DNA of 64,000 nt from Mesobacillus jeotgali (lineage in GTDB: Bacteria; Bacillota; Bacilli; Bacillales; Cytobacillaceae). The notes beneath the pieces are model-generated. The model did no database searches. It worked only from the letters and a program-made list of their open reading frames with translations, and was not told where the DNA came from. Positions 16,471 to 36,886 of this stretch are shown here, in pieces (the stretch's first letter is position 1; every line of letters begins with the position of its first letter). The position numbers were made by a program, and so were the translations under genes. Location of the stretch: the NCBI RefSeq assembly GCF_900166585.1, contig NZ_FVZC01000009.1, positions 1,313,444-1,377,443 on the forward strand. The letters run 5' to 3'.

Positions 16471-16656
16471 ATGGAAGAAGTTATAAAGCTGACTGACCAT
16501 TTTGTTTATACAACCTCAACAGCTGAAGTCACGCTGCCAGATGATTTTATTGTTGAATTCCTAGCAGATTTTCAAGATTATAATAATCCAAAGATAGTTA
16601 AGATAAAGAATTTGGATGAACTAATGGACTTTATAGAAACTATCGATAACGAATAA
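16471..16656 (+). CDS. small hypothetical protein
   Basis: 61 aa, acidic, MEEVIKLTDHFVYTTSTAEV at the start, no membrane segment. The frame opens at 16375, but the ATG at 16471 is preceded by GAAGGCGGA, a plausible ribosome binding site. It ends at a strong terminator. I do not recognise a family. It may be cotranscribed with the upstream kinase 107 nt away. Confidence 0.6.
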   Translation: MEEVIKLTDHFVYTTSTAEVTLPDDFIVEFLADFQDYNNPKIVKIKNLDELMDFIETIDNE

Positions 16657-16685
16657 AATGCGGTCCTCAAAGGACCGCATTTTTT
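16655..16685. terminator. bidirectional terminator
   Basis: AAAATGCGGTCCT and AGGACCGCATTTTTT pair around CAA. It ends the small gene on the plus strand and touches the stop codon of the HesB-like gene on the minus strand. Confidence 0.92.
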
Positions 16686-16971
16686 ATACTTTCAGTAATT
16701 TGAAATTCCCGACCCCAAAAACATCCTTAATATAATCGAGCTTGGTATCTTTAAAATAAACCCAGTCTCGTTCATGGATCAGGATTGAAACCTGGTCAAA
16801 TGTGTAAATTTTATCTTGATCTAAAGGTCGCTCTTCCAGAGCAACTCTGAGCTGTGGTCCTCCTCAGCCAATTCCCATGGTCAGGCGGATATAAAGCTTT
16901 TCTCCATCCTTGCTTTCTTTTTGAATCGCATTCAAAAGTATATTATGGGCACTCCCTGTTATCTTGAACAA
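16684..16971 (-). CDS. HesB-like selenoprotein with in-frame UGA
   Basis: 95-aa HesB/IscA-fold protein whose frame is interrupted by one TGA at 16866-16864 (codon 36). Around it the translation is LTMGIGUGGPQLRVALEE, the exact place where HesB-like selenoproteins carry selenocysteine and other members carry Cys. The frame then continues to VGNFKLLKV and a TAA, followed by a terminator. The start is a TTG at 16971, just behind GGAGGGAGGAAG. A hairpin (16837-16849) lies 14 nt past the UGA. The selA and selD genes elsewhere in the window support recoding. The molecular role, perhaps redox or Fe-S related, is unknown. Confidence 0.88.
16837..16849 (-). promoter_or_regulatory. candidate bacterial SECIS hairpin of the HesB-like gene
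   Basis: On the minus strand CAGAG and CTCTG pair around TTG, and GCTC with GAGC could extend the stem with a bulge. The loop lies 20-22 nt past the UGA, the distance expected for a SelB-binding bSECIS element. Confidence 0.6.
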
Positions 16972-17135
16972 CTTCCTCCCTCCTCTCTTCATTATTTTTT
17001 CAGGCCGGATGTTTCAAATTATGACAAATCCTTGAATTTAATATTGAAACATATATATTTAACACCAATCTTATACTATATTAATTTCAGGGGCAAAAAA
17101 ATAAATAAGCCTCATCATTCACTGGGGAGATTTAT

Positions 17136-18379: not shown

Positions 18380-18673
18380 ATGAAAATTACTATCAATGAT
18401 GATGCGGCAGCCTGGTATGAGAATGAAATGGACCTTTCAACCGGAAGTTATTTACGCTTTTTTGTCCGGTATGGAGGGTTTAGTTCCATCCAGAAAGGTT
18501 TTTCACTAGGTGTCTCTAAAGAAACACCAGACCATATCGGCGTGAAAACAGAAAAGAACGGGGTCACATATTATATTGAAGAAAAGGATATCTGGTATTT
18601 TGACAACCATGATTTAATCGTGGAGCTTCACCCAGTCGGGCAGGAGCCCGAATTCAAATTTGACCAGAAATAA
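18380..18673 (+). CDS. yneR: HesB/YneR-like protein
   Basis: 97 aa, the length and sequence type of B. subtilis YneR, a HesB-fold protein of unknown role. It starts MKITINDDAAAWYENEMDL and contains LRFFVRYGGFSS, so the Cys/Sec position of the HesB fold is replaced and no metal-binding Cys remains. This contrasts with the selenocysteine paralogue 1.4 kb upstream. GAAGGAG lies 9 nt before the ATG. It is convergent with yneQ, with a shared terminator. Confidence 0.85.
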   Translation: MKITINDDAAAWYENEMDLSTGSYLRFFVRYGGFSSIQKGFSLGVSKETPDHIGVKTEKNGVTYYIEEKDIWYFDNHDLIVELHPVGQEPEFKFDQK

Positions 18674-32000: not shown

Positions 32001-33407
32001 CTATATAAGCCTTAGTGCTTTCAAAAGGTGCTCTTCCTCTTCAGGAGTAACTGTGCGGAGATCGACATGAACCTCTTCTTTGTGAATCCTGACGACAATG
32101 GCTGGCGAATATTCTGTCCTCAGCTTTCTGGCAATATGTTCAGCACTCATCTCTGGATGGCTGATAGAAGCCAAATAAGTAGGCAGCTCGACATCTGGCA
32201 TTGTTCCTCCGCCAACCTGGCTAGTCCCCGCTGTAATACTTGCCTTTATTTTTCCATTAATAGAATTAATAAGGTTTACGAACTCTTCCGTCCTGTCCTT
32301 CAGTTCTGGTAAAGAAATAAGTAAATCTCGAAGAGTTGGAATATTGTATATCCCCTTCTCTCCTTTCAGATAGTCCATCAAGGTTGCCTCAAGTGCTGCA
32401 AGCGTCATTTTATCCACTCTGACCACACGGGCCAGCTGGTGCTTCTTTAGTTTCTCGATAAGCTCTTTTTTGCCTGCAATAATCCCTGCCTGCGGTCCGC
32501 CTAATAATTTGTCTCCGCTGAAAGAAACGATGTCTGCCCCCATTTTAAGCACTTCACTGACAACAGGCTCTTCACCTATTCCATGTCTCTGGAAATCATA
32601 AAGTACACCACTGCCAAGGTCTTCGTAAAAAATCACATGGTCATGCTTATTTGTAAGCTGAGCCAAATCATTGGTCTCTACTGTTTGCGAAAAACCAACT
32701 ATTTTGAAATTGCTCGTATGGACTTTCATGATCATGGAGGTCTGATCGGACACAGCGTTCTCATAATCGAATAAATGAGTCTTATTGGTTGTCCCCACTT
32801 CAACTAAATGAGCTCCGCTTTCTTCCATAATAGAAGAAATTCTGAACGAGCCTCCAATTTCGACTAGCTGTCCTCGTGAAACGATCACTTCTTTTTCCTT
32901 GGCCAATGCACTAAGGATCATAAAAACAGCTGCAGCATTATTGTTAACGACCATCGCTGCCTCCGCTCCCGTGATTTCCTTTAAAAGAGCCTCTACATGG
33001 CTATGTCGTGAACCACGCTCTCCTTCCTCAAGCCTATACTCAAGGTTGGAGTAATTCATTGCAGTGTCTATTACATGCTTAATGGCATTTTCACTCAGCC
33101 TTGCTCTGCCAAGGTTCGTGTGCAAAATGGTTCCAGTGGCATTAATCACTCTTTTAAGTGTATAATCCAGGCGGCTGGCAACAGCAGCGTCAAGGGATAA
33201 AAAAATGCTTTCCATAAACGCTGCTGTCCCGGGCTCACTGCCCTTCCATTCACCGCTAAGTATATCTTTCCTGACCTTTTCAATTATTAATTTCATCTCA
33301 TCAGTCAAATAGAAATCATGTATATCATACCGTTCAAGTATATCGGTAAACCGTTTATCTTTCTGCAGTTCATGTACTGCAGGCAAGGCTCTTAAAAATT
33401 CCTTCAT
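32001..33407 (-). CDS. selA: L-seryl-tRNA(Sec) selenium transferase
   Basis: PLP enzyme that turns seryl-tRNA(Sec) into selenocysteinyl-tRNA(Sec) using selenophosphate from SelD. It is 468 aa, as expected. Family segments: VINATGTILHTNLGRA near 87, NNNAAAVFMILSAL near 155, VSRGQLVEIGGSFRI near 180 and the PLP Lys in FSGDKLLGGPQAGII near 297. GGAGG precedes the ATG. The selB gene, normally next to selA, is absent here: the 3' neighbour is convergent sspP. The histidine kinase gene lies 80 nt upstream on the same strand and could be cotranscribed. selW-like and selD genes are 2 kb away. Confidence 0.95.
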   Translation of the reverse strand: MKEFLRALPAVHELQKDKRFTDILERYDIHDFYLTDEMKLIIEKVRKDILSGEWKGSEPGTAAFMESIFLSLDAAVASRLDYTLKRVINATGTILHTNLGRARLSENAIKHVIDTAMNYSNLEYRLEEGERGSRHSHVEALLKEITGAEAAMVVNNNAAAVFMILSALAKEKEVIVSRGQLVEIGGSFRISSIMEESGAHLVEVGTTNKTHLFDYENAVSDQTSMIMKVHTSNFKIVGFSQTVETNDLAQLTNKHDHVIFYEDLGSGVLYDFQRHGIGEEPVVSEVLKMGADIVSFSGDKLLGGPQAGIIAGKKELIEKLKKHQLARVVRVDKMTLAALEATLMDYLKGEKGIYNIPTLRDLLISLPELKDRTEEFVNLINSINGKIKASITAGTSQVGGGTMPDVELPTYLASISHPEMSAEHIARKLRTEYSPAIVVRIHKEEVHVDLRTVTPEEEEHLLKALRLI

Positions 33408-35459: not shown

Positions 35460-35696
35460 TTATCCTTCTATCTGCTTTATAATATCGTCAGTATCCGGAA
35501 AGACACCCGTATCCAATTTGGAATAAAGAAGTTTACCGTTTACCGTAACTTCAAAAGCGCCTTTTGAAGCCGGAATTAATTCCATTTTCTCTACCTGGTT
35601 CCGAAAATGGGTGAATAGTTCTTCCGCGAAACTCGCGGCCTTTGGAGCATAGTTTCATTGCATACAAAATTGGACAGTTACTAGAAATTTTTCCAC
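35460..35696 (-). CDS. SelW/SelT/SelH (Rdx) family selenoprotein with in-frame UGA
   Basis: 78-aa thioredoxin-like protein of the Rdx family with a CxxU redox motif. The frame begins at GTG 35696 behind AAGGGGG and reads MEKFLVTVQFCMQUNYAPKA, where U is a TGA at 35657-35655 (codon 14). It continues through EELFTHFRNQVEKMELIPAS and GAFEVTVNGKLLYSKLDTGV to FPDTDDIIKQIEG and TAA. The GAFEV..NG.L..SK...G.FP pattern is that of SelW-like proteins. Frame and family match are uninterrupted on both sides of the UGA, so Sec insertion rather than a pseudogene is favoured. It is divergent from selD, sharing a 137-bp upstream region. The redox partner is unknown. Confidence 0.9.
35624..35638 (-). promoter_or_regulatory. 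candidate bacterial SECIS hairpin of SelW-like gene
   Basis: On the minus strand CCGCGA and TCGCGG form a perfect 6-bp stem around GTT. The loop lies 23-25 nt past the UGA, as in known bSECIS elements with G and U in the apical loop. Confidence 0.7.
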
Positions 35697-35833: not shown

Positions 35834-36886
35834 TTGAGTGAACATGAAAAAATCCGTTTGACTTCGTTGTCAACAAAAGCTGGCTGAGGCTGTAAAATCA
35901 GTCCTGAGGACTTGACGCAGGTTCTGCGTCTATTACCAGAACAGGAACCTGTTCCTGAATTGCTTGTCGGACATGAAACATCCGATGATGCAGGTGTATA
36001 CAAACTGACAGATGATATCGCACTGATCCAGACAATTGATTACTTCACCCCAATCGTGGATGATCCATATATGTTCGGCCAGATTGCTGCAGCAAACGCT
36101 CTTAGTGATGTGTATGCAATGGGTGGGGAACCAAAGACTGTTCTTAATATTGTAGGGTATCCAGTCAAAAAGCTTGGACCGGATATTCTGGCAGAAATAT
36201 TAAGAGGTGCAAGTGACAAGGTAAAAGAAGCAGGCGCTGTTACGGTTGGCGGGCATTCAATCGATGACCAGGAACCGAAATTCGGCTTATCTGTTACTGG
36301 TTTGGCCCATCCAGAATCGATTTGGAAAAACGTCGGTGCAAAGCCGGGTGATGTTCTGGTCATTTCAAAACCGATCGGAGTCGGAATCATGACAACCGGA
36401 ATCAAACGCAGTGCGGTTACGCCGGAGCAAGAACAAGCTGTGACCGAAACAATGGCCTTATTGAACAAAACCGCAGCCGAAGCGCTCAAAAACTTCAATC
36501 CCCATGCAGTGACTGATGTAACTGGATTCGGACTGTTGGGACATGGAAGTGAAATTGCCCGCGGCAGCAATGTAAGTTTTGAAATTTCGTTATCTGAGGT
36601 GCCTGTTTTAGCGGGTACATATGATTTGGCTGCACAAGGCGTGGTGCCAGGAGGTTCTAAATCAAATCATAAGTGGCTGGAGAATGATGTCGAGTATAGT
36701 GACATTTCACTTGAAGAACAGATAGTCCTTTGTGATGCCATTACGTCGGGAGGCCTTCTAGCATCACTGCCGGAGGATGAAGCCCAGCATTATGTAGAAG
36801 CACTGAAAGACAAGGGTTTAAATTATGCGGCTGTGATTGGCAAAGTCACAGAGAAGCGAGACAAGTTAATCTATGTAAAAAGGTGA
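35834..36886 (+). CDS. selD: selenide, water dikinase (SelD) containing selenocysteine
   Basis: Makes selenophosphate from selenide and ATP, the selenium donor for SelA. It is 350 aa when read through one TGA at 35885-35887. The start is a TTG at 35834 behind GAGGTG; translation gives MSEHEKIRLTSLSTKAGUGC then KISPEDLTQVLRLLPEQE. The UGA is at the active-site Cys/Sec position of SelD (GCGCK or GUGCK). Further motifs are DDAGVYKLTDDIALIQTIDY, NALSDVYAMGGEP, VGGHSIDDQEPKFGLSVTG and TDVTGFGLLGHGSEIA. Calling the start at the TTG near 35912 would delete the catalytic residue. A terminator overlaps the stop codon region. Confidence 0.96.
35900..35930 (+). promoter_or_regulatory. candidate SECIS hairpins of selD
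   Basis: Two successive hairpins follow the UGA: AGTCC-TGA-GGACT (35900-35912, loop 18-20 nt downstream) and GACGCAG-GTT-CTGCGTC (35914-35930, loop 34-36 nt downstream). The first fits the usual distance; the second has the same GTT loop as the SelW-like gene but is farther away. Confidence 0.55.

Follow-up and report, generated by a model that had tools for sequence, protein, structure and literature searches.

Does a minus-strand reading frame of Mesobacillus jeotgali, broken by a single TGA, encode a working protein, and is this TGA read as selenocysteine (Sec, U)? The frame lies in a 64,000-nucleotide stretch (the window) of contig NZ_FVZC01000009.1, which is contig C9 of the 4.63 Mb genome (G000). 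An earlier note, made from the letters alone, had read it as a HesB-like selenoprotein gene, and our analysis supports this. We put the probability that this is a functional HesB-like selenoprotein gene, with the UGA read as Sec, at about 0.93. The note had also named two outcomes that would speak otherwise, a frame shifted or decayed in relatives and the absence of selB and selC. Neither describes what was found. The gene and its signals are the following.

16684..16971, minus strand: HesB-like selenoprotein gene, 95 codons plus TAA, with a TTG start (from the frame, homologues and profile matches)
16864..16866, minus strand: in-frame UGA, taken as a Sec codon, at the position of IscA Cys35 (from the frame, homologues and alignment to IscA)
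16827..16845, minus strand: hairpin of the bacterial Sec insertion sequence (bSECIS) type, with an 8-bp stem, a GGA loop and 26 nt from UGA to loop (from folding, published constraints and pairing conservation)
16979..16984, minus strand: AGGAGG ribosome site, 7 nt ahead of the TTG start (read from the sequence)

The coordinates first given for the frame proved exact. Between TTG 16971 and TAA 16684 the run of 95 codons is broken by one TGA only, at codon 36 (16866-16864). The translation is LFKITGSAHN...LTMGIGUGGPQLRVALEERP...FKLLKV*. The open-reading-frame (ORF) list of the window contains no ORF of 60 amino acids or more in this frame, and standard gene calling probably misses the gene, as the earlier note had stated. 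Homologues mostly start at the matching position with ATG or TTG; one (L031) has ATT there. A sequencing error as the source of the TGA was ruled out, since the same TGA is present in other genomes.

The first sample consisted of 61 genomes, our own and its relatives, with counts made by hand. Some match at an expectation value (E) of 0.001 was present in 42 of them. A TGA-bearing homologue was found in 38 (E 2.9e-13 or better, 75 to 95 of 95 residues covered), although the genomes are related and such counts are not independent events. All 38 homologues have U at the motif, which is UGGP save for UGPP in L038 and UGRP in L055. The Sec synthase gene selA scored over its cut-off in 48 of the 61 genomes, including all 38 carriers of the TGA, and none of the other 13 genomes has a TGA homologue. 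In three of the 48 (G003, G009 and G015) selA is split, cut or carries stops.

One alternative is a pseudogene, with the TGA acting as a genuine stop and the downstream frame in decay. The standard code does read TGA as a stop, and 3 of the 38 homologues (L026 in G015, L027 in G014 and L055 in G039) look frameshifted at one end. Against decay stand the retention of the TGA across genera, the presence of selA in every carrier and the pattern of substitution. In 105 pairs from 15 members of the genus, the 15 codons ahead of the UGA have a ratio of nonsynonymous to synonymous differences (pN/pS) of 0.23, and codons 13 to 58 beyond it one of 0.21. The values become 0.29 and 0.30 in 325 pairs from 26 rows. 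Selection on the protein is equally strong after the TGA as before, and the sequence is equally well kept on both sides, as had been remarked from the letters alone. We rejected the pseudogene on these three grounds and regard it as highly improbable. The three frameshifted-looking loci may reflect assembly error or decay; in G015, which carries one of them, selA is split in two as well.

Synonymous differences (pS) in the hairpin codons (7 to 12) are 0.215 in the 105 pairs, compared with 0.547 downstream and 0.465 upstream; in the 325 pairs the hairpin value is 0.252 versus 0.709. Codon use was tabulated for 41 rows (42 less L055), three of which, L050, L061 and L068, belong to another group described below. 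All 41 rows use CTG for Leu at +9 and GAG for Glu at +11, and each of the 26 rows with Ala at +8 uses GCT. Leu at +5 is spread over five codons.

Codons 7 to 12 span the hairpin that the earlier note had placed at bSECIS distance. The published constraints are a loop of 3-9 nt, a stem of 4-16 bp, a G in the first two loop bases, a distance of 16-37 nt from the UGA and a minimum free energy of at most -7.5 kcal/mol (PMC13188914). The hairpin falls within these limits, with a loop of 3 nt beginning with GG, a stem of 8 bp, a distance of 26 nt and an energy of -9.0 kcal/mol, and conservation of codons and pairing agrees with it. Folded alone, it has a z score of -4.26, and 0 of 200 shuffles are as stable. 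Pairing and covariation were scored on 41 distinct rows, bearing in mind that related rows can beat shuffles without any structure. Paired cells make up 88.4%, against 81.0% when shuffled, and 0 of 500 shuffles are as high. Covariation is 0.292 versus 0.186 shuffled (0 of 500 as high), and slid versions of the hairpin reach at most 0.115. The further pair types seen in the hairpin are matched by 9 of 500 shuffles. Two pairs are invariant.

Frame and hairpin alone are insufficient, because a filter on length plus hairpin is passed by 6 of the 984 TGA-ended frames of the window; their use as sufficient proof was dropped and homology decides. Three of the six are the HesB-like gene, selD and a SelW-like gene; the remaining three look like chance frames. 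Homology places the UGA at the Sec/Cys position of HesB-like proteins, as first proposed: in IscA, the residue aligned to it is the first cluster cysteine. This alignment to Cys35 is a weak match by sequence (1s98, E 0.19), and the equivalent Cys of the Aquifex protein 1nwb aligns at E 1.9e-5.

The genome encodes the machinery that Sec decoding requires, with selA, selB, selC and selD all present. The profile matches of selA (560.3 bits), selB (363.6 bits) and selD (399.2 bits) are over their cut-offs. The Sec tRNA, the product of selC, scores 56.1 bits against a gathering score of 47, and ARAGORN reports a tRNA-SeC with anticodon tca. Two of these genes lie within the window.

32001..33407, minus strand: selA, selenocysteine synthase (profile match)
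35834..36886, plus strand: selD with an in-frame UGA of its own (AGUGCK) at 35885-35887 (profile match, hairpin filter)

The UGA and the hairpin are conserved, and so is the protein sequence to either side of the UGA. Taken with the Sec genes of the genome and with what is established about Sec decoding in bacteria, this conservation leads us to infer that Sec is inserted. SelA, SelD and tRNA-Sec would yield Sec-tRNA; SelB would bind the hairpin at 16845-16827 and insert Sec at UGA 16866-16864. The product would be a 95-residue protein with the IscA fold, assumed by analogy to be a dimer.

Several results weigh against this reading. The whole 54-nt stretch is unremarkable in stability (z -1.14; 23 of 200 shuffles as stable). 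Hairpin pairs that change on both sides number 3, compared with 2.7 in shuffles, and 364 of 500 shuffles score as high. Among the four outer pairs, three are broken in 10 to 14 of the 41 rows, in part owing to a one-base bulge in the stem of some homologues. No TGA homologue was found in 10 of the 48 genomes with selA. A DNA pattern of UGA plus hairpin matched at least 120 stretches, but it requires the UGA, UGGP and the hairpin, so its matches are no evidence for these. The protein also scores low with the curated models: 21.0 bits against a cut-off of 66.35 for TIGR01911 (E 3.8e-4), 29.1 against 85 for NF038090 (E 9e-7) and 22.7 against 26.3 for PF01521 (E 1.2e-4). It reaches no curated cut-off among the families compared. 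A bulged stem was also tried and rejected as a general model, since it pairs 75.3% of cells over all rows versus 88.4% for the plain stem.

The low TIGR01911 scores are the rule in this phylum, because the cut-off is reached in none of 299 sampled genomes. In that sample 24 match TIGR01911 at E 1e-10, and 24 of the 25 matches listed have the TGA. For Bacillota this threshold may be set too high. TIGR00049 matches the window protein at E 6.4e-9, and the UGGP of the protein agrees with the UxGP motif of HesB-like selenoproteins (PMC13188914). The protein is HesB-like by motif, fold and Sec, and is not a TIGR01911 member. Every one of the 80 pattern loci listed is matched by the family profile, at E 1.1e-10 in the poorest case; the frame stays open for 30 to 108 codons before the UGA and for 58 to 75 after it. 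A search of genome contigs starting from the protein gave no relative, whereas the DNA pattern with TGA succeeded; the former probably failed through back-translation of the query with Cys codons.

We also sampled 398 genomes of the class. At least 245 match at E 1e-8, mostly through ordinary Cys carriers. Among the matches listed, the 17 best all have the TGA, and 4 of these 17 genomes are also in the first sample. Below them, among the matches listed, Cys carriers (GGCSGF...CGCGSSF) are interspersed with further TGA matches. Reading 27 of these class-sample loci gave U at the motif in 16 and Cys in 11.

What might such a protein do? An AlphaFold2 model, built from 55 rows with Cys substituted for Sec, has a predicted local distance difference test score (pLDDT) of 95.1. 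Its best solved matches are IscA, SufA, DsrR of Allochromatium vinosum (2k4z) and the Aquifex HesB-like protein, so an IscA fold is predicted. In 35 rows the residues R29, U36, G37, P39, L45, E47, D53 and G86 are invariant. The predicted fold, the place of Sec at the Cys35 position and these invariant residues would suit a metal or Fe-S carrier that does without C-terminal cysteines, its cluster being bound by selenolates from at least two subunits. Yet the hallmark of A-type proteins, a Cys-Xn-Cys-X-Cys motif (PMC7144353), is incomplete here. Unlike IscA, SufA and ErpA, the window protein has Sec for the first Cys and no C-terminal Cys-X-Cys. The genome already encodes a SufA-like carrier whose motif is complete, along with further PF01521 proteins. 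We consider a carrier of this kind somewhat unlikely. Because Sec occupies the first-cysteine site and the C-terminal cysteines are missing, the protein is unlikely to be an Fe-S carrier of the classical three-cysteine type.

Our tentative choice, held with less than even confidence, is selenol redox or relay chemistry at the Sec loop, alongside the ordinary SufA-like carrier. A redox or chalcogen-relay protein would cycle its Sec via selenol, selenenyl sulfide or diselenide. Sec is retained in all 38 homologues, and among the 27 class loci read no Cys replaces Sec in the UGGP motif: none of the 11 Cys loci has CGGP, the nearest being CGGR in L095. For most selenoproteins that have yet to be characterised, a 2026 review anticipates a redox role (PMC13188914). 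A second conserved Cys that could act as resolving partner is missing, which speaks against this choice. A third possibility is a protein-binding regulator that uses the fold alone, like the Cys-free relatives. DsrR has none of the cluster cysteines and is linked to the control of dsr genes. The retention of costly Sec argues that the residue itself matters. The Cys-free paralogue described below has no sequence match in the Protein Data Bank (PDB) at E 0.1, which leaves a link between this paralogue and YneR unsupported. A regulator seems improbable to us.

The missing C-terminal cysteines appear to mark a set of relatives. No Cys follows the Sec in 61 of the 80 pattern loci listed, and 19 have a Cys within the last 15 residues. 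By record title, the listed loci without a C-terminal Cys are mainly Bacillaceae. Of 20 loci of other Bacillota drawn with TIGR01911, 11 could be parsed by the strict pattern and 9 could not; 10 of the 11 have a Cys near the end, the exception being L244. In a tree of 96 rows and 97 columns, in which 38 of 93 inner branches are well supported, Sec rows without a C-terminal Cys are clustered (4 changes versus a shuffled mean of 27.8). None of the three label groups forms a single clade in this tree, and the label rule is crude: L038 was labelled on account of an inner Cys. A Cys form of the group without C-terminal Cys did not turn up in the genomes read. The other group does include a Cys form, with GCCGPQ, at locus L066 in a genus member. 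The bolder proposal is a mainly Bacillaceae, selenium-dependent HesB subfamily that has shed its C-terminal cysteines, leaving one Sec as the only former cluster ligand; selenium would then be the sole ligand for any cluster or metal between subunits, or the former carrier loop would have turned into a one-selenium redox center. We regard it as a long shot. The tree places L165 and L172, from records titled Chryseobacterium sp. ISL-80 and Pseudomonas sp. ISL-84, amid Bacillaceae rows; these records could be mislabelled or their assemblies mixed.

HesB-like selenoproteins have been in published lists for about 20 years (2005 and 2006 papers). In 2006, 11 were listed, Bacillales had 3 selenoprotein families of any kind, and for the wider family 2 Sec-to-Cys events and Cys forms were published (PMC1794560). 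A later count gives 90 proteins in 86 organisms (PMC5029168). The protein of Methanococcus maripaludis was detected by 75Se labelling; its disruption mutant is viable and, per an unpublished remark, fixes nitrogen, and the function of these proteins is still called unclear (PMC11097638). The window gene is a new member of this published family (PMC5029168, PMC13188914). It shares the UxGP motif, a bSECIS beside the UGA and a similar length (the profile has 92 positions), and differs in falling far under the cut-offs. What it adds is a large, well-conserved set in Bacillaceae genera, with an unusual one-selenium form. We take these genera to be aerobic-type. Since the window protein is under three cut-offs and no phylum genome passes TIGR01911, curated models may miss such genes, and the selenoproteins of this group may be undercounted.

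Two paralogues and one neighbouring element deserve mention.

18380..18673, plus strand: PF01521 paralogue without any Cys, open frame (Pfam match)
G000:C8:667727-667951: second HesB-like selenoprotein, locus L050, with UGGPQ, a C-terminal Cys and a hairpin of the same kind
16655..16683, unstranded: two-way terminator-like hairpin between the HesB-like gene and a convergent plus-strand ORF (consensus match only)

The Cys-free HesB paralogue that had been noticed 1.4 kb away is real, with 31.0 bits to PF01521 against a cut-off of 26.3. L050 resembles the window protein in its motif and hairpin, but it ends in GGDGGC, scores 60.8 bits to TIGR01911 and is 28% identical over 78 residues. A paralogue that keeps the C-terminal Cys in the same genome makes the question of function testable. 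In 17 stretches compared, no convincing operon or partner gene surrounds the HesB-like gene. In a good part of them it lies between the same flanking genes, presumably capA-like and plsY-like, and this kept position looks like general synteny. The HesB-like gene and selA share one contig in 29 of the 38 TGA carriers, and for 27 of those 29 the distance between them is about 35 kb or less (hand count); this may be plain synteny as well.

Other selenoprotein genes and candidates were seen in the genome. The SelW-like gene adjoins selD and scores 72.7 bits to TIGR02174 against a cut-off of 34.2.

35460..35696, minus strand: SelW-like selenoprotein gene with a CMQU motif, UGA at 35657-35655 (TIGR02174 match, hairpin filter)

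No ORF of 90 amino acids or more is listed at this SelW-like gene. With its AGUGCK motif selD is a selenoprotein gene too, and the ORF list places its start too late, at 35912. Two formate-dehydrogenase-like matches, G000:C8:149608-150660 and G000:C9:1601718-1603589, have one in-frame TGA each and are possible further selenoproteins.
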